Below are positions 17,013-61,167 of a DNA stretch of 64,000 bases, piece after piece; positions within the stretch are counted from its first letter, which is position 1, and each line of letters opens with the position of its first letter. The stretch is from Tubulanus polymorphus (taxonomy: Eukaryota; Nemertea; Palaeonemertea; Tubulaniformes; Tubulanidae). The translations under genes and the position numbers were made by a program. The notes beneath the pieces were generated by a model. The model was not told the origin of the DNA, searched no databases, and worked only from the letters and a program-made list of their open reading frames with translations. The stretch covers positions 23,652,001 through 23,716,000 of the forward strand of contig NC_134025.1 of assembly GCF_964204645.1 (NCBI RefSeq). The letters are read 5' to 3'.

Positions 17013-17024
17013 TAGGCCAATCAG

Positions 17025-17705
17025 ATGCGTTGTTTCTCACCGGCAGATTTACCCGTAATCGGGGACTCAAATCTTCGGGAATGTGATATCCCAACAGGTG
17101 TTATTATTTACCAACCAGGCGCAACCAGCGATAAAATATCGTCACTTCTGACTGAAGCTGATTCCGCGGTTCCGGATAGGTCGTCAATTGGTGACGTAAT
17201 TTTACACTTGGGTACCAACGATGTAAATAACAACAAGAATGACACTGACTCAGTTAAAATGAATTTGTCTTTAGCTCTAGCTAAGACTACAGAACATTAC
17301 CCAAATGCGCATGTTTTCTTATCCAGTATAATACCAAGAAAAGGAGGCGACAACAACGTAAAGGCATTCAATAACGCTGCAAAAGGGGTTAACAGTTATA
17401 TGGAAAAACTATGTACAAAACAAAACATTTGTTTCATTGACAATGACACCTTGCTTAAAACAGCTTCGGGAAAGACGCAGGAGCGTTTTTACTCGCCAAC
17501 AGATAAAAGTGGTGTTCATCTGAACGAGACTGGAAAGCTGGCGCTGATTAAAAACTTCTGCGAAGCGATTGACGGCACTGGAGATCGTGATGTTTTCCAA
17601 ACTCCGGGTTCTGGAAATAAACTCAAACGCAAAGAGCGATCTTTAACATCAACGCCACCGTCGGCTGAAAAAACGTCAAAAAAACCAAACGTAAACGCAG
17701 AATAG
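17025..17705 (+). CDS. LINE ORF1 fragment: SGNH/GDSL esterase-like domain
   Basis: 226 residues. SGNH block I is visible as VIGDSNLRE (catalytic Ser in GDS), block III as LGTNDVNNN (GTND), and a late D-x-x-H (DKSGVHLNETG) gives the catalytic Asp/His pair. These blocks define the SGNH hydrolase fold, which is found in ORF1 of CR1/L2-type LINEs, where the esterase is thought to help in RNP or membrane association. The C-terminus is basic (KLKRKERSL and KTSKKPN), suited to nucleic-acid binding. The usual N-terminal coiled-coil or zinc-knuckle part is missing, so the ATG at 17025 may be an internal Met of a truncated ORF1. The stop is followed after one base by the middle ORF's ATG. Confidence 0.75.
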   Translation: MRCFSPADLPVIGDSNLRECDIPTGVIIYQPGATSDKISSLLTEADSAVPDRSSIGDVILHLGTNDVNNNKNDTDSVKMNLSLALAKTTEHYPNAHVFLSSIIPRKGGDNNVKAFNNAAKGVNSYMEKLCTKQNICFIDNDTLLKTASGKTQERFYSPTDKSGVHLNETGKLALIKNFCEAIDGTGDRDVFQTPGSGNKLKRKERSLTSTPPSAEKTSKKPNVNAE

Positions 17706-17706
17706 G

Positions 17707-17985
17707 ATGAGTGACTTGAATATACCGGACATAGTCAATACTTGTGTTTATGTCATTTCGATCGTTTTTCTCCTCGACGTGGTGAATTTCTCTTTCCCTT
17801 CTCACACTGTGAGAAATATAAAAAATAATTATGATTGTCTCAATGTCTATGGTAGTCAATCTTCAATTATAGGTTTAACTAAAACCTGTACACAATTTAA
17901 AAACTATAGCGTAGTATTATATATTTTACTACATTTGGGTGTTTATTCATTGAAATTCCAATGCGTAAACATCCAAATGAAATAA
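17707..17985 (+). CDS. Small middle ORF of the LINE, hydrophobic, unknown function
   Basis: 92 residues starting at an ATG one base after the ORF1 stop (TAG-G-ATG), a layout that would allow termination-reinitiation. It has two hydrophobic stretches (near residues 12-28 and 68-80). It ends about 50 bases before the ORF2 ATG. I know of no standard LINE protein in this position; it may simply be an open stretch of the inter-ORF spacer. Confidence 0.3.
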   Translation: MSDLNIPDIVNTCVYVISIVFLLDVVNFSFPSHTVRNIKNNYDCLNVYGSQSSIIGLTKTCTQFKNYSVVLYILLHLGVYSLKFQCVNIQMK

Positions 17986-18036
17986 TACGTGACTTAAATA
18001 TTTGTGTTCTTTATATTCATTCAAACTTTTGTGAAA

Positions 18037-23623: not shown

Positions 23624-25508
23624 ATGAAGTTTTTCATCGTGTTTGCCGTGATCGTAGTTGCTGCCCAGGGTAAGTTTTAAGTTACTCACATCTGAAATGT
23701 CTTGATATGAAAGAAATGGCTGCGCTTTGGCATTTATCTTGTCTATACATGTACTATGATATTTATGTTCGACGTTGTAACATCGATGTTCGTTATAACT
23801 TCAAAATATTTCGAACACCAACAGGCTGTCCAGATTTTATGTGCATGATGCATTGTGAACACGGTTTCCAAAAGGGACCTGATGGTTGCGATATTTGTTT
23901 ATGTAACGAGGAACCAGGTAAACATTATTACAGTCTTTATCCAATGATGTCACTTGAAATATTGTTACATCTACATAGAAATTGTCATTGAAATTAAATC
24001 TACTTTCTATTCTATTTGCTCGTGTTCTTCACGGATACATTAGAAAAGAGAAGTAAGTTTCATATCACAGAGATCTAATAAGACGATTGGTAAATTCCAC
24101 TTCTTTACATATGAATGTATGAATAACTGTTTCTAATTCCAGGCTGCCCAGATGTAATGTGTATGGTGCATTGCGAGCACGGGTTCCAGAAGGGACCTGA
24201 CGGCTGTGACACATGTCAATGTCACGACGAACCAGGTATGTATAATTCAATATTCTTATTTTGACGACGATACAATAATAATGACGCGTGGAAGTACTTA
24301 ATGAATCATCCATCTTTTTTCTTTTTTACACAGCTGCATTAGAAAAGCGAAGTAAGTTTATTATCCTTGTAATAAAAAAAATGGTCATAATGGTGGTAAT
24401 CGGAACTTGCGTTTTACATTGACTTGCTTATATTTGATTCTAGGCTGTCCAGATGTAATGTGTATGATGCATTGCGAGCACGGGTTCCAGAAAGGCGATG
24501 ATGGTTGTGCAGTCTGCAAATGTAACGAGGATCCAGGTAACTTTGATTTGAAAATAATCAACATATTTCCATTTAATTGAACTTCCTCCGAAAATAGAAT
24601 CTCATTCACAATCTCATTCATATTTCGGGGCTTAATCGAGTGTATTTGAAATTTCAATAAAAACGCAAGATTTTTTTGCAGCTGAAGTAGAAAAAAGAAG
24701 TAAGTAGAATAATGAGCGATAGGATTTGAAGCCAAGGACGTTGCCCAAGCATTTTGAGTGTAAAATTCGGCTATTCATTTACTTCGATTTCATTTCTCTT
24801 AGTTATTCAAGATGTTTCCTCGATATGAATCGATAAATCCTTGTTTTTTTTTGTTTTCTGCCAAAAGGTTCAAAGCATTGTAAGACATGTAGAATGCACT
24901 GTCCCCACGGTTTTGTAATGGGAGCTGATGGTTGTCCTTCGTGCGAATGCCGCCAGATTGAGTTGCCACCTTTACCTGAAGGTAATGTCACCAACACCTA
25001 GTTTTATTATATATTTTTCATTTTACATGCATATAGTTATGAAGAAAAAATGTTGTTAAAAACTTTCTTGAACTTTTTTAAACGGATGATAATTTCTGAT
25101 ATTTTATCACATCTATCCGTTTAGAACATTGTAAGACATGTAGAATGCATTGCCCAAACGGTTTTGTGATGGGTGCTGATGGCTGTCATTTGTGCGAATG
25201 TAAACAAGTACTACCTCCACTCGAAGGTATGTCGCATCACATTCTGGGACTTTCTTTATCTATCGATGCTTACGTCTATCCTTGTATCTAATCCTCATGA
25301 TTATGTTCAGTTCCAGCGAGAAAACCGTGTAGAACTTGTAGAATGAGATGTCCGTACGGTTTCGTTATGGGCACAGACGGTTGTCCAACTTGTGAATGCA
25401 AAGAAAGTCATCAATGTACGTATATATATCTACGAAAGGATCGTTTATGCAAATTCTTCTGAAGTTAAAATTCTCATCTTGTTTAATTTTGTTTTTATTT
25501 TCACAGAA
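23624..25508 (+). CDS. Antistasin-type protease inhibitor polyprotein A (six domains)
   Basis: Exons: 23624-23669, 23825-23917, 24044-24052, 24143-24235, 24334-24351, 24444-24536, 24682-24699, 24868-24981, 25125-25226, 25311-25415, 25507-25508; 230 residues. Exon 1 encodes a signal peptide (MKFFIVFAVIVVAAQG). Six 30-residue antistasin-like domains follow, one per large exon. Three have C-x4-C-x3-C-x10-C-x2-C-x-C spacing (CPDVMCMMHCEHGFQKG type) and three have C-x2-C at the start (CKTCRMHCPNGFVMG type). Antistasin domains inhibit serine proteases; the targets here are unknown. All introns are phase 1. Microexons of 9, 18 and 18 nt encode EKR, AALEKR and AEVEKR linkers between or after the first three domains, so dibasic processing is likely. 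The stop codon is split (T at 25415, AA at 25507-25508). AATAAA at 25618. Confidence 0.88.
24607..24656 (+). repeat. Intron tract shared with gene B
   Basis: These 50 bases, in the intron before the AEVEKR microexon of gene A, match 27480-27529 in the last intron of gene B with one mismatch. They include the central string ttcggggcttaatcgagtg. In gene B the tract runs straight into a used splice acceptor; here it does not. Confidence 0.85.
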
Positions 25509-25617
25509 AATCTAAGTGTTGATCTGCGTGTGTGACAATTTTCCAGTTCCGGTGCTCTTATAATTAATTAATCAAAAAGATCGTAAAATTCACACCATTA
25601 TGATATACATGGAATGA

Positions 25618-25623
25618 AATAAA
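25618..25623 (+). terminator. Poly(A) signal of antistasin gene A
   Basis: AATAAA 110 bases after the split stop codon. Confidence 0.6.
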
Positions 25624-25940
25624 GAAAACGTTTTAGTAAACAGATGCATTTTCTTAGATTTGTTTTGGTTGTTGTTAACCGAAAGCTCCATTATTATATG
25701 TAAATCACCAAAGTAACAAGTGGAGCGATAAGAGGAGACACGTATTTATCGGTTGAAGAAAAACGTCAGTCTAGAGCTAATCTGATAAAAATAGAAATTT
25801 CATTGAATGCCACTTTCATTCACCGAACTAATGAAATGGTCAAAGCCTACCGATAAACGCGTTGACCTGTTGACTCGCTAATGGAAACCATGTGTTAACT
25901 TTTACATCGATTAAATTGATAACCAAACGATTGAAACTAC

Positions 25941-25947
25941 TATAAGT
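25941..25947 (+). promoter_or_regulatory. TATA-like box of antistasin gene B
   Basis: TATAAGT lies 63 bases upstream of the ATG at 26004, in the same place as the TATA box of gene A. Confidence 0.5.
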
Positions 25948-26003
25948 ACTACCAATAAACTATGCCGGTCACTTCCACCTGAAGGAACGCATACAGACGG
26001 AAA

Positions 26004-27619
26004 ATGAAGTTTTTGATCGTACTCGTCTCGGTTATCGCTGCTACCCATGGTGAGTGTTTTCATATTGCCGTCGATAATAGAAATCTTTAGCTAAAGGAAA
26101 CATTTTTTCATGAACTGTTTTCCCTACTGAAGGCTGCTCTGATGTTATGTGCATGATGCATTGCGAAAACGGTTTCCAAAAGGGGCCTGACGGTTGCGAT
26201 ATTTGCGCATGTAAACCAGGTACGTTTATAAACATAGTTATCGTTTGAGGATCTGTCAAATTATTCCGCAATGGTTATACCTTCGACATGAGAAAAAGTG
26301 AACATGCATATTCAAAATAAATTGAACCGATTATTACTTTTCAATAGCGATATAATATCACCCTGAAAAGTTGATCTCGTCCATTGGCATCTGGTAAAAT
26401 GTACATAGATCTAATTTCTAATTGAAGTCTGCTCAGAAGCTATGTGCATGATGCATTGCGAATACGGTTTCCAGAAGGGACCTGACGGTTGCGATATTTG
26501 CGCGTGTAACGACAAACCAGGTAATTTTGTATTACTATTAGAGCATAGAACCAGATAAAATGACAGAAGGAACTGTTTTTCTAATACATGTTTCTTTATC
26601 AATCTCTTTACAGCTGCAATAGAAAAGCGAAGTGAGTTTAGATTATCTAGATAATGATTATCTACATAACATTTAATGGTCATACGAAGCATAAACATGG
26701 AAACATGACTATCACGTTTACCCATACGACTCAAAGCGTAAATGTCTATCATTCCAGGCTGCCCAGATGTAATGTGTATGATGCATTGTGAGCACGGCTT
26801 CCAGAAGGGACCTGACGGTTGCAGCGTGTGCAAATGCAACGAGCCAGGTGTGTTAAAATATTTGTTTGAATCAAGTGATTTTTATCCTTATTAATTGCTT
26901 TATCAAATTTCTTTGATTTTTCCAATCGTATTTATCGTCATTCTTTTTTATTGATTACAGCATTAGTGAAAAGAAGTAAGTATATTTATTAGCGGCCAGT
27001 CAGTCAAGAACTTGTATATCAATCTGACTACACTATTCCATTATAACGTATATTAAAAGGAGTTCCATAATTTCTATTTTAGGCTGTCCAGATGCTATGT
27101 GTATGATGTATTGTGAATATGGATTCCAGAAAGGATCTGATGGCTGTGATATCTGTCAATGTAAAGAAATACCAGGTAAGTTCGTAGCTTCCGTCATGCA
27201 TCACATTGAGATATGTAGTTTCTATTTGATTTCGTAATTTGCTGGGTACGAAATAGTCATCATTCGCTAAAGATTGTTTTCCGTAATGTTTTTGGGTGTA
27301 AAAAAGTTTTGCATCAGTACTTAAATAAGTCTTTTTCGTTGATAATTTTCGCAGCACCAAAGTTCTGTAAAACTTGTCGAATGAGATGTCCGAACGGTTT
27401 CATAATGGGCGATGATGGCTGCCCAACATGCAAATGTAAAGCAACTCCGGAAGGTATGTAAATAAAAGGTTATTATTGACACAATCTCATTCATATTTCG
27501 GGGCTTAATCGAGTGTATTTGATATTTCAGAATGTGCCCGCCGCCCAATGTGTAGAATGTACTGCCAAAATGGATTCATGCAAGGTCCCGATGGCTGCGA
27601 CATCTGCAAGTGCAAATAG
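26004..27619 (+). CDS. Antistasin-type protease inhibitor polyprotein B (six domains)
   Basis: Exons: 26004-26049, 26133-26219, 26428-26520, 26614-26631, 26758-26847, 26961-26975, 27083-27175, 27355-27453, 27531-27619; 209 residues and a TAG. The signal peptide is MKFLIVLVSVIAATHG. Domains 1-4 have the C-x4-C opening (CSDVMC, CSEAMC, CPDVMC, CPDAMC), domain 5 has C-x2-C (CKTCRMRCPNGF) and domain 6 has C-x5-C (CARRPMCRMYC). Microexons of 18 and 15 nt give AAIEKR and ALVKR linkers flanking domain 3; domains 1 and 2 are joined without a dibasic site. All introns are phase 1. The gene is a tandem paralogue of gene A, about 500 bp downstream in the same orientation. Secretion and protease inhibition are inferred from the family; targets are unknown. 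Confidence 0.88.
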
Positions 27620-27803
27620 ACATTCGGGTACGTGGAGCGATCTGTTCGTGTTTCTTGTATGAAATTCTTCTTCGTAAAAATATCTTTTTCCTTCAGAATT
27701 TCTTTCTCTGTATTTCCAGTCTCAAGATTCAAGAGATTCGAGTGAAAATCCCTGTGATTAATCAAAGTTTTTGTCTAATTTTTTCATTGTAATGAGAAAT
27801 GAT

Positions 27804-27809
27804 AATAAA
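27804..27809 (+). terminator. Poly(A) signal of antistasin gene B
   Basis: AATAAA 185 bases after the TAG of gene B. Confidence 0.55.
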
Positions 27810-27829
27810 CGAATGATAAAATGTAACAT

Positions 27830-28345
27830 CTGAGTTTTTACGCGCCGATGGATATTTTTACATACACCTTCATCTCAGTTACGTCGAATCATTTCTATCA
27901 TTCATACAACTGTAGTTGTTGATTTCCAAATAATAAGAAACTCTAGATATATACTTCTCTAGTAATAAAAACAAAGTTTATTTCAAATAAAGAATTTACA
28001 TAATTGATAACACAATATTGCTGATAAGCTTCTATGGTTAAGATCGTTGGAAATTTAAAATCGACTGATAGTAAAATGGACTGGTGAGAAATGCGTTGGA
28101 AAGTGTCCTGTTGTTACGGCCAAGTTGGGAATCGACATCTCCATTATTCCTACGTAATACAACTGAATCATCGGCGAGTGAGCTGTTGTACTGAAAAATT
28201 TGAATTTATAAATTGTAAGTTAAAATTGGAAAATCCGATTTTACAATTATTTGTATGTTTTATTACGTTATTTATTATGGAAAAATAGAACAAAATGGAC
28301 AATACTTCCGCTAAACATTGTCTCCATGGCAACGGAAAGCGAAAT
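27830..28345. other. Convergent 3' spacer between antistasin gene B and the SMOC gene
   Basis: AT-rich; contains the likely minus-strand poly(A) signal of the SMOC gene (tttatt on the plus strand at 27977-27982). No further exon is visible. Confidence 0.45.
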
Positions 28346-31300
28346 TTACATCTTAAACGAATTGATGATCGGTACTGCTGGCAAAGCAACAAATAGTTTA
28401 GCCATTAGATCATCGAAAAGTAACAACAAATTTGGTTTCTTAATTAGGATTTATTATTCCAAGTTATATTACAAAATAATGTAAATTCGAAATTTGTGTC
28501 AATTTTTCGAAATCCGTTGCCATGATTTCAGAACCATCCGTTCATTTCCTGTAAATAAAATTTCAATTGCGAATTCACAATGTCCATTCAGAAAACAACG
28601 AAATTGATAAATGAATTTTTGAAACTCATACATACATAGCTTACCTTCTTGACGCGCCTCTAAATCCATATCCTCGATATCTGACCCTCAAACTATCAAA
28701 TGTTTTGCGAAACAAACAAGATATTGCATTTTACATACCTGATCGGCGTTTTATTAAAAAGACAAAAAGGTCTACAAATACATCATGAATCGTTACGATC
28801 AAATTGGACGCCGTCCAACAAAGTTTAGAGAGATATGTACAAAATGCAATGAATTTATACACGCTATATCATACTCCAGTAGTTGAAGCCTATGCTAACC
28901 ATCTAACGAGAGTGCAACTAGACTTCTATTCACCCGCGGTTAAAATCAATTGTCAACGAATTCCTTAAAATACATTCATCATCACAGTTTGTACGCCATT
29001 TTGTACGCGATTCTATTTTCGTGATTGTCACCATAATATTCATAGCACAGTATATCATATATTGAAATTGTACAATAGCACTAAAAATCCCGGGTTTCAC
29101 TCCGATCGTCGGTAGGAAATATTATATCATTTGATAATATCCTTTGCGTAGAATCAATCCACAGGTGAATGTTTTCTTTTTTAATCACTGTGTAGATACT
29201 TACTAAACGGATTCGGTCCTTTACGCTTCGGTTGCTTGGGAAGCTTCTTATCTGAAATGAAAGGAGGTACGGTAAATGATTACTGATAGTTCGTTGGATT
29301 GACAAAAGTGGCTGCTAAGTGAATAGTATCGCACCATGTATGCCCATACAATCGACCCATTCGTCGATTGTGATTTTCTTGTTGTTATTCGCATCGCAGA
29401 ATTTCACGAAATTTCTAGCGCATTTCCGTAACGATTTCTTTCCTTTCACGTCTTTGTTCGATCGTATTTCGAGTTTAAGATTTCGTCTTTCGCGTCGGTC
29501 GATCATCTGAAGAAGAATCGAAACGTCCAAATTCATCGATAAGTTTTATGAAATTCCCAAAGAAAAATGATCGCCCGAAGAAGCAGCACCGAACTTCAAG
29601 AGTAGACAGTATAATAAGAGACAGAAACCCTCACTCACGTTTTGAAAACATTAAAAATATTTCGTAAGTGCAACTTACCATATTATTATTTTCGTCCAAC
29701 ATGTGAAGTTTCCAACGTATAGCCTGTTCCTCTATCGAATGTTTTGGATCAGGATCTGGAACTTTCCTGCAAAACAATATGTAAACTTTTCGGTACTTTA
29801 AACGTATGGAATTCAATGAAATAAATCAAATTGAATTCACGTTATCATAAAGGAAGTCACTCGGAATGCAGACATAAATCATCTCATTTTACTATGGGTT
29901 ACATCAAAAGTACATAAAAAGGATGTATTTTTGCTTGCATATATTTCTGAAATGTATTCATTGAATCCAGTAGGTGTCTCACCTTGTACCGGTATTGTTG
30001 TTGGCATATTCAACCATATCTTTAGTCATTTTGTCTAACTGGGCGGTTATGAACCTTCTCCTGTGCACAGGTGGGCAATCTGTTGCAATAAGAATAAAAT
30101 AAAGAAGATAATATTAATTCCAATTCAGGTTCATTATAATTCGTATATATGTTACACTTATATGGACCTTTCATGATACGTATGTTGATGTTTTCGCAAC
30201 TCGGCGTTACTTTGAATGTTGATGTTCCGGCGATTGGTACGCCCGTATTTTCATCTGCACACCAGCAATAGCCAGTCGACTCGTGACACTGGGTCGATTG
30301 AAATTTACCAGCCGCGCTGCATTTCGGTATGAATATATTACCATTCGGGTCGGTTCGATGGTTTTCCAGGGCCACTTTCCGTTCGTGCGCGCAATCTTTC
30401 GTTTCTTAATAAAAATGAGCTTTTTGTAGCAACATGTATACGTATATATTGCACGTGCATTTATATAATGAATACATTTTTTTTCAAACTAAAGCTGAGT
30501 TCTAGGATTCTTACCTTCGGTATTATCAGTATCTTCCTCTTCTTCTTCATCTGTTCCCACATCGAGCCAAGCAGCGGCGCCACCTGATAAATCTTTGTGT
30601 AAAAACGGAAAGGCATTCATCTCATTAAACAACATAATTTTGCAAATATCTTACAATAAAGAAATCATTAATCTAGTCACTAATAGAGGATGTACCTTGT
30701 TCATGTTGTATAGATAGTGTTGTGCCCGAAGTAACTATTCGTCTTAAACAAATTATATTTCTAGGAGTGAAGTGCTTTGTGAAAACTAGCTTTTTACTAT
30801 TCTGATGAACTCAGAGCTCATTTTAAATCTTACTCATATTTTACCGAATGTGTATATATATTTTTTCAACTTCACAGTCGACGAGGAAAATCTGGTAAAC
30901 TCTGCCTTACCTCCTAGCTTGCTAATGGTTGACTTCTTTTCGGGCGTGATCAGAGGTCGCGCGGTGACTTGCTTAACGTCTGAGTTGAGCGACAAAAACA
31001 AGCGGAATGAAACTATATAAGACAGGTGTGAGGAGCCCTGTTCTAGTCGTAGAACAGGAAATATATTGCACTTATGCCCGGCCTGCTTTTACTGGTTAGC
31101 AATTACAAGAACAGATAAAAAGAAGACATTAGCAGCGATGTTAGCAAGCGAAAGCAATAAATTTGTTTGGTTCTGTTTATCATTCGAAACTGTAGTTTCA
31201 CACTTTTGTTTTTCACAGTTTTGACCAAAAGAGAAAAAAATCTCCAAATTTTCTGTAAGTTGATAATTACGCACCAGAAAAACTATTCCGAGCAAAATGC

Positions 31301-34300
31301 GTTTACGCCACAAAATCCAGTGTTCGGTGTTCGCAACATGTGCTTTTTACAATTGTTGTTATACACAAGCAAGCGAAGCAGTTACCTATTTTCTAAAGTA
31401 AGAGCGGGAATACGAAGATATTTTACAGAAAGACCCCACCACCGTCATTTCAGATACATACTCAGACAAACACGCATCCATTCGGCGATAAGAAATGAAT
31501 TTATATATTTTTCGATTGAGTTGAATAAACCTGAACTAATAATTTAATATTCACCACAAGCATCATAGGTCTTATCAAACAAAGAAGCATAAACGACTCA
31601 GGCTGTAGCTACGGAGAATTTTTTACATCATCTAATTATACATTCACATTCTAGCGAATATGGTTCAATTGGGTTCAAGCATTTGTTGAGATTAAGATAT
31701 TTGGTTGTTTACTAATTCATCGTTACTCTGTCAACTTAGTTTTGGGTCTGGAATTTGCCGCACGATGTAAGCAATTTTTACGTAGTGATTTTGTCAATAA
31801 TGGGAAGGAAAACAAATATGCGTACATACACGCACGCACTCACACGCTCACATATACAAAAATATTGCACATTTCCCAAACGTTTTCTGCTTTCTTAGAT
31901 CATGCCCGGTTAACTCTGACCGCTACTTCGTGTATGACTGTCTCGGCTCGTATTTGAATTCTATTCTAAAACACTGCGAAGATGACTTACTATTGATATC
32001 GACTCCAAGGCAGACGGACCATTCGCTGCGAGCTATGCGGCTGTCAGAATCTATATCACAGTACTGCATGAAATCGCGGGCACATCGTTTCGGTTTCACG
32101 TGGCGTCGTATCATCCGAGTCAGTGAACGTATTTCAGACTTCTTCAGTCGGTTATCTCGGTTTTTATCCATCTCACTGAACTTCCATTCGATCACTCGTT
32201 TCTCGAACGTGTCTGCGAAATGTTATCATTATTTTTTTCCTCATTATTTCAAAGACAAGATTAATATCATTCGTACACACGTTTTATTTAATGTAATCAT
32301 CTGAGATTAAGATGAATGTTTACTCCGATATGAGGATTTGCGTAATAAAAAAGCTCTTGGGATTAATTTGTGAAACTATAAGACAATCGTGTATTCGATG
32401 TTTATAATGCCAAAATTTCGAAATGATTAATTGTGCAATTCACCATCGTGGATTTATTCCGTTTGGATGGTGTTCACGCTTCAGTTACATGTTTACTTAG
32501 AATTACCTGTAATCCCACTTTGTTTTAATTTCGGTTGAGAGTCTTTCGGTAATCTATGATATTCCTTTTTAAATAAATTTACGAGATTTGAATTAAACGT
32601 TGATCTATCGGTTTGGTTGCATCCTGTAAAGATAAAGTTCAATACTTTTCAATACTATAATTGGTAAGGAAAAATGGTTAAAATGTAATGCAGTCAAAAC
32701 TTGAAGACCAGGGACACCGTGCCCACTTGACAATCCGACAGCTTTAACACTGAACGCTCCCTGGTAAAATACAGAAACATGACCTCGAAACACGTCACAA
32801 ACACATCAGGATTTTGGCAAACACTACTGGCTGCAAGCGTGATTCTGATCAGGCCAATTTCTAAGCCGCCGATGTGTCGTCTGGACATGTACAAACGAAA
32901 TATCAAGACAATCCATCGAAGCGTCTTCGAAACCTTTCAAAATAATTTGATTCCGTCTACGGACAGACAGTTGAACGAAAACTGAACGCAATAGCCCACT
33001 TGGGGCAGCTAAAAACATACCCTTCTTTCCCTTTAAGCGTTTCTTTCTTTTCTTTCCTTGCTCTAGAAAAAAAAACAACAAATGCAAAATATAAGAATTG
33101 TGAATTTCGAAAATATATATCGTAGAAAATCGGAATCGAAGTTTATTATGGTTGCTTTAGGGTAAAACTACCAAGGGAGTTGCTGATTACTCATCATTTC
33201 AAAGAAAATAGTACTTTTGCATTTTCGTGCTCGAACAACTCTGATTAGTCCAAGTCGCCCTTGCTGCGAAAATGAATGCTAAAATAAGTGCAGCTTGTCT
33301 GGCGATCGATCTTTCTCTGAGACAGACTACAAGCGGCGGTCACAAGATAAATCAAGATTTGATCGCGAATAGAACGTAGTTGTTCGAAAGCAGATCGCTA
33401 TCTGCGGTCATACGTCGTTGACGTAAATTGCTTCGTAAAGAAAATTAGCCGGCGATATAGATTTCGAAATGGACGTCGGTTTATCATCAACGCCGCAATA
33501 GAGCATATAACTTAATATGCTTATGTACGTACTAGAAGATGTGCTTACCAATTTCACCCGAGCTTAGCAAAAGCTACAGAGTGTGCTCTGCACCAATTCA
33601 ATTCAATTCAAAATACAACAAACGCGTGTACTCGTGAAAGAATTTCCAGCTAGGCCACTTACTTTGGCATTTTGGTTTCTTTCCTTTTACTGATGTGCCT
33701 GGAATGGGTTTGCCTTCCTTGTTTACGCACCAGCAATAACCAGTGGCCTGGTGGCATTGCACCTTGGAAAAAGAACCATCTGCCTCGCAGTTCGGTATGT
33801 AAATGCCCACAACTCCAGCCCCAGTCGCCCCATCGGACTGCTGTTGGCTTTTCTCAGCTTTCAGTTTCTCCTCTTGACAACGCGTTGGGTCTAAATGAGA
33901 ACGAGAAAACTGACTGGCAAGTTTATTGGTTATCTTGCTAAATGATGTCTAGAATAAATGATATAATACAAATTGTATAATATTATGGACCAATACAGTT
34001 ATTTCGGATTTCAATTGACCGGCAACGAGCGAAGTATTGATGACGTCGTGCACATCCTCTCAAAAATAATTATTGGAATTTATCAAAAATAGAATAAGGG
34101 TTACGAAATATATCTAATTAGAAAATAAACACCAAAATTCACAATTGCAATTGTTATTTTGAAACGCCAATATTGATGACGTAGTGCACGTCGCCTCATA
34201 CAGAACCTCTTAAGTAACGCATACTAGGTATATATACAAACATTATTCTAACGGTTTTTATAGCGTCAGAAAATTAGAAGATATCTTTTTGACTATAGCA

Positions 34301-35562
34301 TTTCATTCCATAATTCTAGGTGAATATTTTTTTAAACATGTATAAGTGGACTAAATTGTCTCGGTCGAACCAACTCGCAGGTGGCGAGGTATATTGTAGC
34401 GAATAGAAATATTATGACGAATAGAATATAAACGGATTAGTCGTAGATTTTCGATTTGGAAATTTCATTATGTGAAATGTCATCTTTTGACGCAACTTAA
34501 ACAAAATGCAGGTGTACATTTCGTGTGTGTGTGTGTATGTGACTGAGCAATATCTATGGACATTTCAAGTAGTTCTGAATAAGATCTTTAACTCGAGTGG
34601 TCGTGCTGGCAACAATACTCATTTCGAGTGATTAATTTGTGATGTGAACATTTCGTGGTTGAAGTGTGCAACCCGAACGTGAAATTATGCGCAATCTATA
34701 GACATAGACATGACGTGATCCACAAAACCGAACCAAACCAGCACCTGCACGATAATGGCCCTATTTGATTGTTTCAGCGTCGTACGGGACATGCAAAGAT
34801 CAAGCGCAAAACTTGAACGTGAGTTTAGTGTTTTTTTCGATGAAAGGTTGAGATTTCTTACAAGTCAACACGTCTGTCTGTACCGAAAAAATTGCGATTT
34901 CACGAGATTTTTATACAGGTGGCCTAAAAGCTGAAATGGCACATCCTTCTTAGAATCGTTCAACGGTGAATAGAATTGTACATCGTTTATTTCTAGTTTT
35001 TAAGAGGACGCTCGACTTCAATTGAAATCGGGTTCATGGGAATGTGAGAACTTACAATATGGCATTACATAATCTAAAAAGGACATTATGATTCAGAAAT
35101 AAATGACGATCATCTGATTATGAACAAATGGACGCAAATTCAGACTAGAGACATAACGCGCCAACGCACATATTCTCGTAATTGAGCAGATTTATCATGT
35201 ATCAATTTTTGTATAATTTCCGTATAATGTTTGGTATCTCCATCAGACGAGAACTGTTGCAATTGGGCTACTAACATTTGACATAAGTCAACTGCTTCAT
35301 CATTTTGTGACTGTAGGTATTATCACACGCGTCCTTCTAATATTCCAGATTTAGACGATACTAAAGAAGATATACTATTAAACTAACCTGAACATTTTCC
35401 TTTTCTTATTACTTTGATCGGTCGCTTTTCGCAAGTTTTCAAACGCAAAATCTCACATCTGGATTGATACGTTCGACCGTCTGAGGCACATACTTCTCGC
35501 GGCTTAATCTGCGTACAGTTCACCGAACAATTTGTGCTTCGACGGAATCGCAATGATGAGAT
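28346..35562 (-). CDS. SMOC: SMOC-type secreted modular calcium-binding protein with two EC domains (signal-peptide exon not found)
   Basis: Minus-strand exons: 35562-35388, 33890-33663, 32623-32507, 32212-31991, 30583-30515, 30404-30168, 30079-29983, 29766-29679, 29506-29335, 29251-29204, 28680-28645, 28377-28346; 506 residues, phases closing exactly. Order: Kazal/follistatin-like (VCASDGRTYQSRCEI), thyroglobulin-1 (QCHQATGYCWCVN), EC domain with EF-hands MDKNRDNRLKKSE and CDIDSDSRIARSEW, acidic linker (AAAWLDVGTDEEEEED), thyroglobulin-1 (QCHESTGYCWCAD), second EC domain with EF-hands LDENNNMMIDRRE and CDANNNKKITIDEW, then a basic tail (KLPKQPKRKG). SMOC proteins are extracellular matrix proteins that bind calcium and modulate BMP signalling. 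The vertebrate order as I recall it is Kazal, TY, SMOC-region, TY, EC, so the first EC is extra. The donor after the second TY (GTCCAT) is weak, and the two last short exons are the least certain. Confidence 0.85.
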
Positions 35563-38500
35563 CTAAAGAGAAGAAGATTAGCATGTCAGTCAAAATTGAA
35601 TATTCTTTGTTGAACTGAAGTGAATATCCTAATGACGATTTCTGAAATTGGTTCATTAATTAACACATTTCTCTCAACACTATTTTGGTTTTGGATGTCT
35701 GATCTTCAAAAAATAAACGTTGTCGAAAAGGACTCGGGATAGAATCGTTGCATCTATTTTGTTTCGGAAAGCCTTTTCTCAACGGATATCAAAAGCTGCC
35801 GATGTATCGAAGCAGAATGGGAAACGACAAAATACCGGAGAGATTAAAATGTCGGTTAGGAGGAAATGTTGTCCTACTTTTGGTGGTCATCAGCGTACAT
35901 ACATACGAATGAATGTAAAAGGAAATACGTGGCACGTGTAAGGAAACTATATATTGCAGAGAACTTGCGAGAGAACAAAAAATTTGAAAATTGTCAAAAT
36001 CGGTGGTACTAATTCGGCTGCTTTTGTATTTGTTTGTTTCTCAGCTACGGATTCTTTAACTAGCTCGACTCTTTAAAACATTAAGAAAGATCATCTCGTA
36101 ATTTTTCGACGTTTCTTTCTGATAATTCGTTTGGCCACCTTCAAAACTTACGTAAACCCCGAGTAATGAACTTCATCGGGTCACGTGTTAACTATTCACC
36201 GCAACCCATTTAGACTATTTCAACCAGAATTGATGCACTCAATAAAGCGAATTACGGTGACAAAAAACCACCGTACGTGCAACCACCCTGGAGAAAATCT
36301 GCTTGATTCTTTGCGAGGTTCGGCACCTTTTTTCCAATTTTCGATGCTCGCATAAACACAGCCGTCTTCAAGTGAAAAAATGCCAGGGCGGATCTAGGGG
36401 AGATGTCAGGGTGTCCAAACCCCCCCTCAAATTTGAAGTGCCCTCAAAATGTCACCCCAAAATATTTTTTGGACCAAGGTTTTCCACCCATAATAGTTTT
36501 TTCAACGCATGAAATGACCGAAAGCACCCCTTAAAATGTTGTAGAAGTATCCGGAGTACGTAGTGTTTCGTAGATAGTGCCCTTTTTTCTCATTGGACCC
36601 CCCTCCCCCCATGGAAAATCCTAGATCCGCCCCTGATGGATCACATTCGATTCGCATTCGATAATCACATCGCGTTTACAATAACTGCCAAATGAGCAAA
36701 ATGGCTTCGATGTAGTTCAAGAGACTCTCACTGTCCTGTCGAGATTATAACACTTTCTCTTGTTTATGGGCTTCACATATGTCATTACTTGAGGTCAGCG
36801 TAAAATGAGCTACCTCAACTGACATGTAGATACAGGGACATATAATGTAGCTTACACACATTTTTTACATTGACTTGATTATGATCATTTTGATTTTCAA
36901 AATGCTCGTAAAACGCTCGTAATATATTTTTACATAATGTACATAATCTTATTGTTACTTATTCTACCATAATCATAATGAAGCAACGAGAGCCGGGTGC
37001 GGGCTTTCAATAAAACTGAAAAACTCATTCTAGATTCCTTCTTCTATATTGGAAAAAAACTAGAAACAACTGCGTTTAGATTTCCCGATAGTTCCGACAC
37101 TGCTGTGATAGTTTTTTTCTTTAGATTTCAGGTACAAATTCTTAAACGAAATCGTTTGGTTAACGACCGGAATTCTTTCGAAGAAAAGAAATCGGCCCGT
37201 ACTTTTTTCTGCTTTTAATTGTAAAGAGAAATGATTTTTCGCATTTCGTGACCTCCCATATAGTCTGGATGATATGGCAGTGTGCGAGGATATCTATCAT
37301 TATCTAGATTGAAGTCTTGTAAATGCACTCACTGCTCCATTGTGATGGGCACGATTTGGATATACAGGAGTCTATTTAATTCAATGAGATAAAAATTAAT
37401 AAGCGACAATACTTTTCATAGTCTGCAGTGTGTCATCATCGCCGTTGAAATATGTCAACGCCGAGTAGATTAAAGACCAGACGATTTGTCAAAAATAGAA
37501 TGGTCGCCCGGGTTTTTGAAGACTTCGCAATATTACGATATAAGAGTGGCTCTATTAGTTTATTATCGGTACATTATACCGATGCGCAAAACGAGAAATA
37601 ATTTCAGGGTCGTACATGCAAAATATTATGAATGTGATAATCGCTTTGTTGATAACGCTTATTACACTATGGTGCGTGAAAAATAGCAAATAACAATGTC
37701 GATCTACAAAACTACAGCAGTCTGTAACTCGGTGAAAAAATGCGTTTACTTCACGGGCACCTATTGCGACGGGGAATAAACACCCATACGTTGCCACAGG
37801 GCTCACATTGAAGCCGAAATACCACCTTCGAAGCGTCGGAAGTTTTGATTAACAATTACCCGACAGAAATGATCGAGAGTCTCTTAGCTGCCGCGACTAC
37901 GGTCGGAACAGCAGGGATCTTATTGTTGAATCGCGGTGACCGGAAAATCCGTACGCGACGGCATCAAAACGATGATGTTGCTAAGCATAGTCCGTATTTT
38001 GTAATTTTGATTTCTAGCCCACCGACCGAACACGCTGCGAATTTTTCAATTGAGAGTGTACTTTTCAGCTAGATAACCTCGATTAGATAGATTATATGGA
38101 AATATATATGTGCAGAAGATGTTTTTGTCCTTAGACAATCATATCTACATATCAACAAAACCATATCTAGATATATACGTGGGCCTTGAAGCAAAATAAT
38201 TTCATACCTAAAAAGACTTAGCATAAGTAGTTTTTCAAACGATATAATACGTACTATATTGCATAATGATATATGTTTCGAACCTGACGTACCTGTTGTA
38301 AACCTTCAGTGTAACTAAATACTAGGAATCCTGTTAGGCATATAGTTTGTAATGTATTCCACGACAATACCCTGTGTTCCATATCACGATTCCGATCTCT
38401 TCAAGTCACTTCTGATCTAAATATTACAACCAGGGAGAGAGCTATAAATAATATCGTATCCTCTAGTCGGACTCGTTAATGACTGTCGATGGAAATATGG

Positions 38501-39670
38501 GGTAATCGCTGATGTGAACCATACGTCTCGATTGCGAATGAATGTCACCAGAAAGAGCGTGCAGCCCACGCCGTGTTTTCGCGACAATTGACAGGGAACC
38601 AACTGCACATAGACGACCAGACAGTCGCACGATATTCACCGAATGAACATCAGCCCAATGAAACGTTACGCTAAATCCCAGAATCGTAATCGCTCGGTCA
38701 TGTGATTTGACTAATGCGAAGAAATATTTCTCTTTGATTGGTTCTGGTGCGAATAGCATGCCGATGTTTATATGAAAAGCGCGTGTAGATCTATTTACAG
38801 CTCGAAAAAGGGCTCGAAATTAAAGTCTGATGGGTCACGGTAATGCGTGCTTTTCGTTAATTTCGCAATGGATCGTCCGCAGCGCAGACACGTTTTACAT
38901 GCGTGTGACGTGATATATTATACGCTTAAAATATTCTCGCGTTTAATACGACACGATCAAGAGGCAATATTCATTGAATAACTGGGCAGATAAATGGCAC
39001 ACCTGCGAAAACATCCATTAGCCCGTCCATTATTTTTCAAGTACGGGACATTCTTGTAGATCTTGGAACTTTCAACTCTTGAAAGTCCCTCGCTTGTTTT
39101 GAGTGCCGGCGGTGCACCGAAATTCGTGAGATCGTGAAAAGCGTTGAAGTTTTTTCCCGCACAAACCGGTTTTCACGATTTTTTTTTAGTAACCGAACAC
39201 AACCACAATTCACGCTGTAAAGCAAGCATCGAGTTAACTAAAAGGAATTTTGAAACTGTGGCCAATCAGCAAAAGAAGTCGTTCCTTAAATCTCGACCGT
39301 GATAGCTTCCGACAAATTGCCATATTTTCTCTCGGAAATTTCTCTCGTGCCAAAAAAGTAGAATTTGTGTGATTTTTGTGCTGCTTTCCTTATGGTCTGC
39401 GTGATGAGAAATTGTAAACGAAAAATGTCATTACAAACCAAATATTCAGATATATATATATATATGTATATCATATTTTATTTTCCTTTTTATGTACGAA
39501 ATACACAGGTTTCATGATTTGTTAGAATATGTGAAATCGTAGATACACGTGTTTCAAAAATCTGAAAAAGAAATAGAAATATGTAACGAGGAATCAAGTA
39601 TACAGTACAGATTTACGTAGCGAAAATGTGACATAGTAATCGCATACGTACATTTTCAATTGCGATGAAG
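35563..39670. other. 5' region of the SMOC gene and spacer to antistasin gene C
   Basis: The signal-peptide exon of the SMOC gene must lie here or further away and should end in phase 0; I could not identify it. A minus-strand TATA-like catataaac near 38770 is a possible promoter. A minus-strand AATAAA (39482-39477) about 190 bp beyond the stop of gene C is that gene's likely poly(A) signal. Small TA arrays occur at about 39450 and 39797-39822. One MITE is listed separately. Confidence 0.4.
36383..36636. mobile_element. MITE-like element with gcggatctagg terminal inverted repeats
   Basis: The left end ccagggcggatctagg (36383) and the right end, reverse-complemented, caggggcggatctagg (36620-36635), match over about 15 bases with one indel. 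The interior is non-coding, about 250 bp, with C-rich runs (ccccccc and ccctcccccc). No transposase. Similar palindromic elements are common in invertebrate genomes, but I cannot name the superfamily. Confidence 0.65.
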
Positions 39671-39790
39671 TTAAGCGCATTTACATAATGGACAACCATC
39701 GTTTCCCATTACGAAACCGTTTGGACAGTACATTGCGCAGGCGACACATGGCTTGGCTGAAAAAGATGCATTGTATCATTTAATGGATTC

Positions 39791-39825
<35 letters not shown>

Positions 39826-42800
39826 CACAGAAAGACAAGATTGATTGAGACAACTTACATCTCTTCTTGGCTGAAATCAAATAAAAATAAAACCGTTTTG
39901 TACCTTAGAATAACGTGATCGACTATAGTTTGAATATAATTCAAAGTGACTAATTACCGATACTTCGTTTCGACTTTTTGCATTTGCAAAGTGGGCATCC
40001 GTCCTTTCCCATCACGAAACCATTTGGACAATACATCTTACAGGTAATACAGGGTTTCCTCTTGACAAGTGATGCTAGAAAAATATTTGAAAGCATTGGA
40101 AAATACTTTGAATACTAATGTAGAGAGTTGTTGGTTCTCGTTCTTTGCAAATGTTGCGTCTTTTAGTGAAAATCGGAGTAATGATGAAAATGATGGAGAA
40201 CATCGATTAATCAAACTTATGCTAAATGAGGCTGATATTCATCTCACCCTTGCATTTACAGATGAAACAACCATCGGGTCCTGTTTCAAATCCGTTCTCA
40301 CAAAACATAGCACACATTGGACGACGAGCGCATTCTAAAGTAACAGATTTCATAAATGTATTGTTTACCGATACAAGTATTATCACTATCATTTAGGCAC
40401 TAGTATATTCACCTTCAGGGGTAGCTTTGCATTTACATATGGGGCATCCGTCATTTCCCGTAATGAATCCATTCGGGCATTCCATGAAGCATGTTTTGCA
40501 TGGAGCTAGAAATTAAAATGGCAAAGATGAGGTATATATGCGTTAATTGTTATAGAGCTGTGATGTCTGATGATTAATCCGTTATCATTTACCTCTCTTT
40601 TGCATTAATTCAGCTGAAAGGGGAATATCCGTGCGATTAGTATTCCTTAGACAAATTCCTTAGATACGTCGTGTCATTTATGATATAACTAATAAAACTT
40701 ACGTGTTGGTTTGTCGTTACATTTGCAGATTTGACAACCGTCCGCTCCTCTCTGGAATCCATATTCACAGTACATCATGCACATCTCATTTCCGCATTCC
40801 GCTGAAAAAAAGAATATTTAATATCTGTAAAATTCATTTGACATTTTTCAATATTTCCATAGTTTAGTAATACTTATTCTTAATCATCCACTGATATCAG
40901 GTTTTTTGAAGACACACTTACGTTCATTTCTTTTGGCCAATTCAGCTGGAAAAATGAATACATTTAAATATAGTATAGAGTTTTCAAAATACAGATTATC
41001 GAGAAACGCTTGAAGGTATATAACCTACGTTTTGGTGGGTTACATTTGCAAATTTCACAGCCGTTAGCATCAGTTTGGAATCCAAATTCACAGTACATCA
41101 TGCACATAAGTTTACCGCATTCTAGAAGGGGATTCAAGGTTCGATAGAATTCATTTTCAGTAAAGAATTTGGTCGATTTTTCATGATAGATATATATATA
41201 TTTTTGGTACTTTACCTCGTTTCTGCCTCAATTCAGCTAAAAAGACAAAAAAAATAAAATAATGAACGGTATGGAAAAACATCATCTTGCAATAATACAT
41301 AAAATTCAGGGAAAAATACTTGAAGTCTGATATGAAAATGTACGTATTCAATCTTTCTCGATAGCAAAAAAACTAGGTATGCAACTTACGTTTTGGCGGG
41401 TTACATTTGCAAATTTCACAGCCGTTAGCATCAGTTTGGAATCCAAATTCGCAGTACATCATGCACATAGCTTTACCGCATTCTAGTTGGAAACCGAATA
41501 GATATGATGTAATTAAGTGACCAAATAATGATAAAATCAATTCGAAATTAGTTTACTTATTTGGAAATGTCTATTTTACCTCGCTTCTGTCTCAATTCAG
41601 CTAGAATTATAAATAAAAATATTTTTATTTTTCAATCAATTCTTCTCTTATATTTCTTAAGTATGTGACGGACAATAAACTAATAAAACTTACGTGTTGG
41701 TTTGTCGTTACATTTGCAGATTTGACAACCGTCCGCTCCTCTCTGGAATCCATATTCACAGTACATCATGCACATCTCATTTCCGCATTCCGCTGAAAAA
41801 AAAAATTTAATATCTGTAAAATTCATTTGACATTTTTCAATATTTCCATAGTTTAGTAATACTTATTCTTAATCATCCACTGATATCAGGTTTTTTGAAG
41901 ACACACTTACGTTCATTTCTTTTGGCCAATTCAGCTGGAAAAATGAATACATTTAAATATAGTATAGAGTTTTCAAAATACAGATTATCGAGAAACGCTT
42001 GAAGGTATATAACCTACGTTTTGGTGGGTTACATTTGCAGATTTCACAGCCGTTAGCATCAGTTTGGAATCCAAAATCACAGTACATCATGCACATAAGT
42101 TTACCGCACTCTAGAAAGAGATTCAAGGTTCGATAGAATTCGTTTTCAGTAAATAATTTGGTTGATCTTTTTATGATAGATATATCTGTCAGATACTTAA
42201 CCTCTTTTCTGCCTCAATTCAGCTAAAAAGACAAACGAGTAAAATAATGAAAGGTATGAATAAAACATCATCATGCAAACAATGTATAAATTCAGGGAAA
42301 CACTGGAAAGGTCAAATATGAAAATGAAAATGTACGTATTCAATCTATTTGGGTAGTAAAGAAAGCAAGGTATGCAACTTACGTTTTGGTGGGTTACATG
42401 CGCAAACTTCACAACCGTTAGCATCAGTTTTGAATCCAAATTCACAGTACATCATGCACATAACTTTGCTGCATTCTAGTTAGAAACCGAAATAGATATG
42501 ACGTAATTAAATGACCAAAAAAATCATAGAATCAATTCGAAATTAGTTAAAAATGTCTATTTTACCTCGCTTCTGTCTCAATTCAGCTGGAAATTATTAA
42601 TAAAGATAAACATTTTTTTTCAATTTTTCAATGTATTCTTCTCTTATATTTCTTAAGTATGTGACGAACAATAAACTAATAAAACTTACGTGTTGGTTTG
42701 TCGTTACATTTGCAGATTTGACAACCGTCAGCTCCTCTCTGGAATCCATATTCACAGTACATCATGCACATCTCATTTCCGCATTCCGCTGAAAAGAAGG

Positions 42801-44482
42801 ATATTTAATATCTGTATAATTCATTTGAGATTTTTCAATATTTCCATTATTTAGCAATACTTATTCTTAATCATCCACCGATATGAGGTTTTGGAAGACA
42901 AACTTACGTTCATTTCTTTTGGCCAATTCAGCTGGAAAAATGAATACATTTAACTATAGTATAGAGTTTTCAAAATACAGATTGTCGAGAGACAATTGAA
43001 GGTGCATGCAACTTACGTTTTGGTGGGTTACATTTGCAAATTTCACAGCCGTTAGCATCAGTTTGGAATCCAAAATCACAGTACATCATGCACATAAGTT
43101 TACCGCATTCTAGAATTAGATTCAAGGTTCGATAGAATTCGTTTTCGGTAAAGAATTTGGTCTATTTTTTATGATAGATATATCTGTTAGGTACTTTACC
43201 TCGTTTCTGCCTCAATTCAGCTAAAAAGACAAACAAGTAAAATAGTGAACGATATGAGTAAAGCATCATTTTGCAAACAATATATAAAATTCAGGGAAAC
43301 ACTGGAAAGTTCAAATATGAAAATGTATTTATTCAATCTTTCTGGAAAGAAAAGAAAGCAAGGTATGCAACTTACGTTTTGGTGGGTTACATGCGCAAAT
43401 TTCACAGCCGTTAGCATCAGTTTGGAATCCAAATTCACAGTACATCATGCACACAGCTTTACCGCATTCTAGTTGAAAACCGAAATAGATATGATGGAAT
43501 TAAGTGACCAAATAATGATACAATCAATATGAAATTAGTTTACTCATTTGGAAATGTCTATTTTACCTCGCTTCTGTCTCAATTCAGCTAAAAATTGTAA
43601 ATAAAAATAAACATTTTTTAATTTTCAATCTATTCTTCTCTTATAATTCTTAAGTATGTGACGAACAAAAAATAAAACTTACGTGTTGGTTTGTCGTTAC
43701 ATTTGCAGATTTGACAACCGTCCGCTCCTCTCTGGAATCCATATTCACAGTACATCATGCACATCTCATTTCCGCATTCCGCTGAAAGAAAAAACATTCT
43801 AACTCATAAAGAATCGTAACCTTATTATGTAACTAATTAAATACTATTGATTGTTCATTTGTTTACGAAAAAAATGGATTTATAGCTCGTATTTCGTCGT
43901 ATGTTTTTACAATTATTCGACAATAAGAGGTTTTCAAAGACAATCTTACGTTCGTTTCTTTTTGCCAATTCGGCTGGAAAAAAAGAAAATCATATACATC
44001 ATATATACGATCAGGAAATTGATGATGAGTTACTATGTTGTGCAGCAGCCACTTACGTGTTGGCTTTGTGTTACATTTGCAGATGTGGCAGCCATCAGGT
44101 CCTGTTTGGAATCCGAATTTGCAGAACATTTTGCACATGGGACGTTTGGAACATTCTATCGAGAAAAATGCATACTGAAATTACTATCCATAATTTTTTT
44201 TTGTTGAAATATCTACACGTATATATTATGGTATTGGACACATTTGGTTGAAATTTACCTTCGAGAGTAGCTTTACATTGGCATTTTGGACACCCATTTT
44301 CACCCATCACAAATCCGTTCTCACATTCCATAAGACACTGCCGGCATACTTTCGCTGAAAATGTATAATTATTTATATACGGGCATGTCAATTTGATCGA
44401 TTACATATATATGGGGATAATTCAAACAGGACTTACCAGTAGCAACGACTATCAGAGCAGCGAATATTATAAGGAGCTTCAT
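39671..44482 (-). CDS. Antistasin-type protease inhibitor polyprotein C (sixteen domains)
   Basis: 29 exons, 610 residues. Signal exon 44482-44437 (MKLLIIFAALIVVATG). Domain exons: 44354-44259, 44155-44057, 43781-43683, 43468-43376, 43109-43017, 42788-42690, 42475-42383, 42110-42018, 41792-41694, 41482-41390, 41121-41029, 40801-40703, 40505-40413, 40334-40248, 40074-39958, 39756-39671. Microexons: 43973-43950, 43587-43567, 43220-43200, 42931-42908, 42586-42566, 42222-42202, 41934-41911, 41600-41580, 41236-41216, 40945-40922, 40613-40593, 39870-39859. Ten central domains have C-x4-C spacing (CGKAMCMMYCEFGF type); the end domains are C-x2-C or C-x5-C types. Linkers read ELRQKR, ELAKRNE, ELMQKR and AKKR, so almost every central domain is bounded by Lys-Arg. 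All introns are phase 1. Probably a secreted precursor of many single-domain serine protease inhibitors. Confidence 0.87.
40703..43781 (-). repeat. Higher-order tandem repeat of about 993 bp, three copies plus a partial
   Basis: Exons of the GNEMCMMYC type start at 43781, 42788, 41792 and 40801, spacings of 993, 996 and 991 bp. Each full unit holds three domain exons (99, 93, 93 bp) and three microexons (21, 21, 24 bp) in the same order. Introns are also nearly identical: compare 40818-40945 with 41808-41934, which share the string tcttaatcatccactgat. The fourth copy is cut after its first domain exon. Confidence 0.9.
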
Positions 44483-60573: not shown

Positions 60574-60880
<307 letters not shown>

Positions 60881-61167
60881 GCAAATAAAACTGCAGTGCT
60901 CATAGCACGATATGATTCAACAAAAAGTATCATTCTTTTAATGGTTGTCATAGAAATCTACATGACCAATGCTTTGGGCGTTGCCAGAAATAGCGTCACT
61001 TCAACAGCGTCACGAAAAGAACACAATTTCCTTCGTTGAGATCAAACAATATTCGTTCCGTCAACCTTGACTTGTAATCAACGTCAGTCGAGGACTTGCT
61101 ACAAGAGTGTTGTATTAGGGACTCTCGAATTTCAGTTCTCAACATAATTTTCTTCCAAACATACCGT

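Follow-up and report, generated by a model that had tools for sequence, protein, structure and literature searches.

Three clustered antistasin genes of the nemertean Tubulanus polymorphus with Lys-Arg linkers on separate predicted microexons: putative precursors of single- and multi-head inhibitors

We analysed a window of 64,000 nucleotides (nt) from contig NC_134025.1 of the nemertean Tubulanus polymorphus, which contains three neighbouring genes, here called G1, G2 and G3, for proteins composed of repeated antistasin domains. A six-frame search for antistasin cores returned 28 in the window, 12 on the forward strand (23827-27613) and 16 on the reverse strand (44346-39677). Exon borders were assigned from reading phase and splice signals, and the genes were modelled exon by exon (Table 1). 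The modelled introns all have GT-AG borders, are in phase 1 and measure 77-208 nt, and the spliced frames are open to the stop over 228, 209 and 610 codons; in G1, the stop codon is shared across an intron with the next exon (25507). Every one of the 28 domains is encoded by an exon of its own, in line with a preliminary description of this DNA, which recognized three neighbouring genes and read most of their domains as single phase-1 exons. The first exon of each gene is 46 nt long, hydrophobic and, judged by eye, signal-peptide-like. TATA-like words lie 58, 63 and 94 nt upstream of the ATGs and AATAAA is present 3' of each gene, both counted without a chance control. Part of G3 is a threefold repeat of a unit of about 990 nt that comprises three domains and three microexons.

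The domains were assigned with Pfam. The Antistasin family (PF02822) matched 6, 6 and 16 stretches in the proteins of G1, G2 and G3, with E values of 2e-45, 7e-45 and 1e-123 and scores of 153, 152 and 404 bits against a cut-off of 21.2. It was the only Pfam family above cut-off in the three proteins; the pacifastin profile was not among the matches. All 28 domains fit the pattern C-P1-x-x-C followed by C..GF...GC..C.C, and all have six cysteines instead of the ten of the leech type. Among known structures, matches were obtained to 1skz (E 1.4e-6) and 1c9p (E 0.0027). The reactive-site half, in which P1 directly follows a cysteine, is shared with the leech antistasins, guamerin, hirustasin and bdellastasin. 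However, the leech forms, as far as they are covered in the available part of PMC6265900, have ten cysteines in each of their one or two domains, whereas G1-G3 combine six-cysteine domains, up to 16 per protein, with KR (Lys-Arg) linkers.

Microexons, taken as exons shorter than about 30 nt, were modelled in 17 of the 25 interdomain linkers (G1 3/5, G2 2/5, G3 12/15), with lengths of 9, 12, 15, 18, 21 or 24 nt. KR is encoded in every one of them, by AAA-AGA in seven, AAG-CGA in five, AAG-AGA in three and AAA-CGA in two. Their lengths are all multiples of three and their borders are all in phase 1, so that any of them could be skipped in frame, as the preliminary description had stated. It had also placed dibasic microexons of 9-24 nt between many of the domains; this was found for the 17 linkers, but the other eight have none. 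To estimate how often such structures arise by chance, the 25 linkers were subjected to 300 dinucleotide shuffles, using splice-score limits relaxed to the level of the weakest microexon. Linkers with a KR microexon numbered 17 in the real sequence, compared with a mean of 0.07 and a maximum of 2 in the shuffled sets, and a chance origin was rejected on this basis. Under the same lax limits, each shuffled set yielded on average 6.4 candidates regardless of sequence and the real linkers 24, of which 21 are dibasic (four of these being shorter versions of the same microexons) and three have no dibasic pair.

Table 1. Positions of the modelled genes, exons and microexons in the window (microexons of G3 are named after the domains that they separate)
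Feature	Position	Strand	Description
G1	23624..25415	+	predicted antistasin precursor, 6 domains, 228 aa (amino acids), 3 microexons
G1 signal exon	23624-23669	+	
G1 domain exons	23825-23917, 24143-24235, 24444-24536, 24868-24981, 25125-25226, 25317-25415	+	
G1 microexon 1	24044..24052	+	9 nt, EKR; acceptor score lowest of 17
G1 microexon 2	24334..24351	+	18 nt, AALEKR
G1 microexon 3	24682..24699	+	18 nt, AEVEKR
G2	26004..27619	+	predicted antistasin precursor, 6 domains, 209 aa, 2 microexons
G2 signal exon	26004-26049	+	
G2 domain exons	26133-26219, 26428-26520, 26758-26847, 27083-27175, 27355-27453, 27531-27619	+	
G2 microexon 1	26614..26631	+	18 nt, AAIEKR
G2 microexon 2	26961..26975	+	15 nt, ALVKR
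G3	39671..44482	-	predicted antistasin precursor, 16 domains, 610 aa, 12 microexons
G3 signal exon	44437-44482	-	
G3 microexon D2-D3	43950..43973	-	24 nt, ELAKRNE
G3 microexon D3-D4	43567..43587	-	21 nt, ELRQKR; donor GTAAAA
G3 microexon D4-D5	43200..43220	-	21 nt, ELRQKR; donor GTAAAG
G3 microexon D5-D6	42908..42931	-	24 nt, ELAKRNE
G3 microexon D6-D7	42566..42586	-	21 nt, ELRQKR; donor GTAAAA
G3 microexon D7-D8	42202..42222	-	21 nt, ELRQKR; odd donor GTTAAG, donor score lowest of 17
G3 microexon D8-D9	41911..41934	-	24 nt, ELAKRNE
G3 microexon D9-D10	41580..41600	-	21 nt, ELRQKR; donor GTAAAA
G3 microexon D10-D11	41216..41236	-	21 nt, ELRQKR; donor GTAAAG
G3 microexon D11-D12	40922..40945	-	24 nt, ELAKRNE
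G3 microexon D12-D13	40593..40613	-	21 nt, ELMQKR
G3 domain exon D15	39958..40074	-	starts ASLVKRKP, ends KKSKRSI; two KR
G3 microexon D15-D16	39859..39870	-	12 nt, AKKR
G3 last domain exon	39671-39756	-	

The three repeat units of G3 allow microexons, domain exons and introns of common origin to be compared. Variable columns amount to 1 of 66 in the microexons, 15 of 285 in the domain exons and 98 of 618 in the introns (microexon versus intron, P 3.7e-4), and the pairwise divergences are 0.010, 0.035 and 0.107, respectively. The microexons align without gaps, unlike the introns. Ten homologous G3 microexons, with the two RQKR exon types pooled and the ELMQKR and AKKR microexons left out, differ by seven synonymous and no replacement changes; with an expected synonymous share of 0.248, seven of seven has a P of about 6e-5. 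Counted within types only, there are five synonymous and no replacement differences, and including ELMQKR adds one replacement (R to M). The domain codons of the same units show six silent and seven replacement changes. These patterns support a constraint on the microexons at the protein level, and they are indirect evidence that the microexons are included in the mRNA and translated.

Splice sites were scored with matrices built on the domain exons. Microexon acceptors have a median intron-side score of 11.6, compared with 8.9 for domain exons, and only one of the 17, that of microexon 24044-24052, falls below the domain minimum. Its sister copies (24334 and 26614) have ACAG where this one, judged by eye, has ACGG, and splicing would have to use an AG from within the old exon. 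An internal AG in the 18-nt microexons (two in G1, one in G2) would likewise permit a 9-nt version that still encodes EKR. Donor scores over the six intron bases have similar medians (8.1 in microexons, 7.7 in domain exons), and GTAAGT is found in eight of the 17 microexon donors. The six donors with low scores (GTAAAA three times, GTAAAG twice and GTTAAG once) are apparently those of the six ELRQKR microexons.

Taken together, we consider it likely that G1, G2 and G3 encode secreted precursors which are cut after the microexon-encoded Lys-Arg pairs into single- and multi-head inhibitors. Each gene would give rise to a secreted precursor of short six-cysteine antistasin domains, and the microexons would normally be spliced in, thus placing a KR site between the domains. 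A proprotein convertase of the secretory pathway would then cut after KR, with a furin-like enzyme acting at the six R-Q-K-R sites and a KR-type enzyme elsewhere, and a carboxypeptidase would trim the basic pair. The features expected of a precursor with dibasic processing are present: a hydrophobic N-terminal exon (by eye), several domains, and KR in 17 microexons as well as twice in exon D15. We infer that the microexons are part of the mRNA and that the proteins are secreted and cleaved. If every linker KR is cut, 21 domain-bearing products are predicted (16 single, 3 double and 2 triple inhibitors), 14 of them from G3 (12 single, 2 double). This differs from the preliminary description, according to which G3 would yield up to 16 single-domain inhibitors.

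Targets were predicted from P1, taken as the position that directly follows the first cysteine of C-P1-x-x-C and placed following the account of poecistasin in the available part of PMC6265900 and an alignment to antistasin 1skz. The 28 heads have Met (17), Arg (5), Lys (2), Ala (2), Leu (1) or Phe (1) at this position. In a tree built from 29 columns, a branch with a support of 92/88, which is below the firm-support mark of the tool, separates the Met heads from the others. With complete cutting, Met would be found at P1 of 14 of the 16 freed single heads, and 9 of the 11 Arg, Leu, Lys, Phe or Ala heads would remain in pairs or triples. KR microexons are present in 16 of the 18 linkers that touch a Met head and in one of the other seven (P 0.001). 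Guamerin, with Met at the predicted P1, acts on elastase- and chymotrypsin-like but not on trypsin-like enzymes (PMC6265900), and the elastase inhibitor poeciguamerin has Met at the same place in its printed sequence (PMC10342134). On the example of these two inhibitors, as far as the available parts of the papers describe them, the freed Met heads should act on elastase- or chymotrypsin-like proteases. Subtilisin-like proteases, which Met-P1 heads might also block, are suggested as a further target.

Several observations weigh against the cutting of these precursors by convertases, or limit how firmly it can be put. Furin prefers Arg at P4, its motif being R-X-K/R-R. Only six of the 17 microexon sites, all in G3, contain R-X-K-R; the other 11 have KR without a P4 Arg and might be slow substrates or depend on other convertases. 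The earlier suggestion of a secreted, convertase-cut precursor agrees with the hydrophobic first exon, the antistasin domains, the conserved KR and the protein-level constraint on the microexons, but a furin motif is restricted to a minority of the sites. Eight linkers lack a microexon. In one of them, G3 D14-D15, the domain exon itself supplies a KR near its start (ASLVKRKP); in another, G1 D5-D6, there is only an RK with Pro after it. Residues around KR vary across the genes (AALEKR, AAIEKR, AEVEKR, ALVKR; ELMQKR versus ELRQKR), while KR itself is invariant. The substitution tests overstate independence: the repeat copies of G3 are related by duplication and perhaps by conversion, and their P values are therefore guides only. 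The association of microexons with Met heads may reflect shared ancestry, and P1 is not decisive for the target, since poecistasin, with Arg at the inferred P1, also inhibits elastase (PMC6265900, in the part available). Finally, microexon donors fall below the lowest of the 29 domain donors in 11 of 17 cases when nine bases, including three exon bases, are scored, and in six of 17 when only the six intron bases are. Since microexon donors tend to be weaker than those of domain exons, some skipping is possible, and inclusion may be incomplete at the ELRQKR microexons.

These weak donors are the only hint in favour of the splicing switch between free and tandem inhibitors that the preliminary description had suggested. 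If certain tissues or stages omitted microexons in a regulated manner, fused tandem inhibitors would be made instead of free ones. Such regulated skipping, which we think unlikely, would keep the frame at all 17 microexons, and the six weakest donors belong to the ELRQKR microexons, which carry the best furin sites. However, microexon symmetry is not special, since all modelled introns, including those in linkers without microexons, are in phase 1. Moreover, the microexon acceptors are as good as the domain acceptors, and the ELRQKR microexons are among those in which KR and the protein sequence are strictly kept. The flanking introns are short (83-168 nt), whereas skipping would require a single intron of 197-331 nt. 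A more far-reaching version, in which each linker microexon serves as an on/off cassette for one convertase site and splicing thus sets the valency of the inhibitor (free versus tandem heads), appears rather improbable; the weak-donor R-Q-K-R microexons of G3 would be its natural control points.

The KR linkers might also be exposed bait or plain spacers in precursors that are secreted whole, with any cutting done by extracellular trypsin-like proteases. The absence of P4 Arg from 11 sites would fit this idea, as would the tick inhibitor sculptin, which factor Xa cuts between its repeats into fragments that are still active (PMC5431157, in the part available). We nevertheless judge it to be of low probability: a dibasic pair would not be required of a spacer or a trypsin bait, yet KR rather than a single K or R is found in all 17 microexons, six times as R-Q-K-R. 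The least probable explanation is that the microexons are misread intron sequence outside the mRNA. Inclusion is deduced from sequence, AT-rich introns readily offer candidates for very short exons, and the shuffled linkers do contain candidates of any sequence under lax limits. However, these are rarely KR microexons in shuffled linkers, compared with 17 linkers here, and synonymous-only change, a divergence below that of the introns and the lack of gaps are not expected of intron sequence.

To see whether other antistasin genes share this layout, we searched the 268-megabase (Mb) genome (77 contigs). With E values up to 0.001, there were 49 matches, 27 of them in the cluster (one of the 28 domains is not among the matches listed); the remaining 22 lie at eleven further loci. 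At six of these loci (L009, L019, L011, L016, L012 and L013), none of 49 linkers contained a dibasic microexon candidate, compared with 17 of 25 in the cluster. This contrast is weak, given that the domain pattern used is loose, that two of the 49 linkers are six-base gaps inside one exon, and that only eight of the gaps reach at least 197 nt, the length of the shortest microexon-bearing linker in the cluster. Searching the genome with the DNA patterns of the 18- and 21-nt microexons, allowing up to two mismatches, returned only the window's own copies (the 24-, 15-, 12- and 9-nt microexons were not searched for). Within these limits, the microexons look like a feature of the three-gene cluster, and on the six loci scanned we rejected the idea that they are general in the antistasin genes of this genome. 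The genome also gave three matches to the odorant-receptor family 7tm_6; a search for the melittin family returned none, but its controls gave no signal either. No relatives were found in viral contigs (the genome_contigs collection was not searched), and Rfam gave no match at the gathering threshold.

Of the other loci, L009 (625-4823) and L019 (3972-9719), both on contig C5, partly resemble G1-G3. With 17 and 28 pattern matches, they mostly have one phase-1 exon per domain, and some of their linkers contain basic pairs, which are encoded by the domain exons. Unlike G1-G3, they are extremely Lys/Arg-rich antistasin stretches with strongly basic domains and short linkers; no linker has a dibasic microexon candidate, and most gaps between domains are too short for a microexon and two introns. 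Five loci stood outside the scan. One of them, L010 (3196-4701, reverse strand), has a layout opposite to that of the cluster, with 11 of 13 pattern matches in one open frame of 802 codons. L014 has two pattern matches 1.5 kb apart, L017 and L018 have one each, and L015 has a profile match but no pattern match.

We also looked for traces of lost microexons. In the introns that lack them no decayed microexons were found, the alignments against shuffled sequence giving P values of 0.34 to 1.0 in seven of eight tests. In the remaining test, the start of the D15 exon resembled a fused microexon (P 0.007). Since this exon starts with a microexon-like KR linker, it suggests that a microexon and a domain exon can fuse or split.

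Secreted inhibitor strings cut at dibasic linkers are already known, according to the available parts of the publications. A close parallel is provided by the pacifastin precursors of locusts and other insects, which are also secreted strings of six-cysteine canonical inhibitors with dibasic linkers, encoded by clustered paralogous genes and with some heads left double (PMC2689174). Several locust precursors were shown to be cut into single domains at dibasic sites, and splice variants alter which domains are included (PMC2689174). Dibasic processing was also predicted for the wasp Pteromalus puparum (PMC5691223). However, pacifastins belong to a different domain family. In their insect genes, exons encode a single domain or several, domain-free exons occur in nvpp-1 (III-IV) and in Trichoplax (exon 4), and no linker microexons are described in the available part of the paper (PMC2689174). 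Human LEKTI (SPINK5), a fifteen-domain inhibitor, is converted into several products by a furin-driven cascade, and an altered cutting rate at one linker shifts which fragment is formed (PMC10218509). It is a vertebrate protein of Kazal domains, and the comparison is one of processing. The thrombin inhibitor sculptin of ticks, which is also built of repeats and has been described as similar to part of hirudin, keeps its activity when cut between the repeats (PMC5431157). The statements on LEKTI and sculptin likewise refer to the accessible parts of the papers.

In the open-licence literature of PubMed Central (PMC), we found no description of antistasin together with a microexon and none of microexon linkers in multi-domain protease inhibitors; antistasin and furin occur together only in that furin appears in a reference title. 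Microexons and dibasic sites are mentioned jointly in a single paper, whose title points to another subject, and among the papers listed on furin cleavage and alternative splicing, one on Gpr126 (PMC6954182) contains the word microexon. As far as these searches go, both the presence of antistasin domains in a putative dibasic-cut precursor and the placement of the putative cutting sites on microexons of their own are new, in agreement with the preliminary description, which had called the arrangement undescribed.

The arrangement amounts to a modular way of building a polyprotein: inhibitor heads and cutting signals occupy phase-1 exons of their own. Gene finders easily overlook such short exons. 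A gene model without the microexons would predict fused inhibitors that lack cutting sites, and hence the wrong products. Should skipping be regulated, splicing would be directly linked to peptide processing.

Some further features of the window were noted. A 50-nt stretch is 98% identical between 24607-24656 and 27480-27529, in non-equivalent introns of G1 and G2; it may derive from conversion or from a small mobile piece of DNA. Between G2 and G3 lies a SMOC-like gene (about 29300-34000, reverse strand) with two thyroglobulin type-1 and two SPARC calcium-binding matches. A non-long-terminal-repeat retrotransposon occupies 17016-20952 on the forward strand, with a GDSL-esterase first open reading frame (ORF1, 17016-17705) and an endonuclease-reverse transcriptase ORF2 (17998-20952) that is open over 984 codons. 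At 11193-15218 (forward strand), there is an open frame of 1341 codons without a Pfam match at E values up to 0.001, and a long TA repeat with several open frames is found at about 60500-61000.

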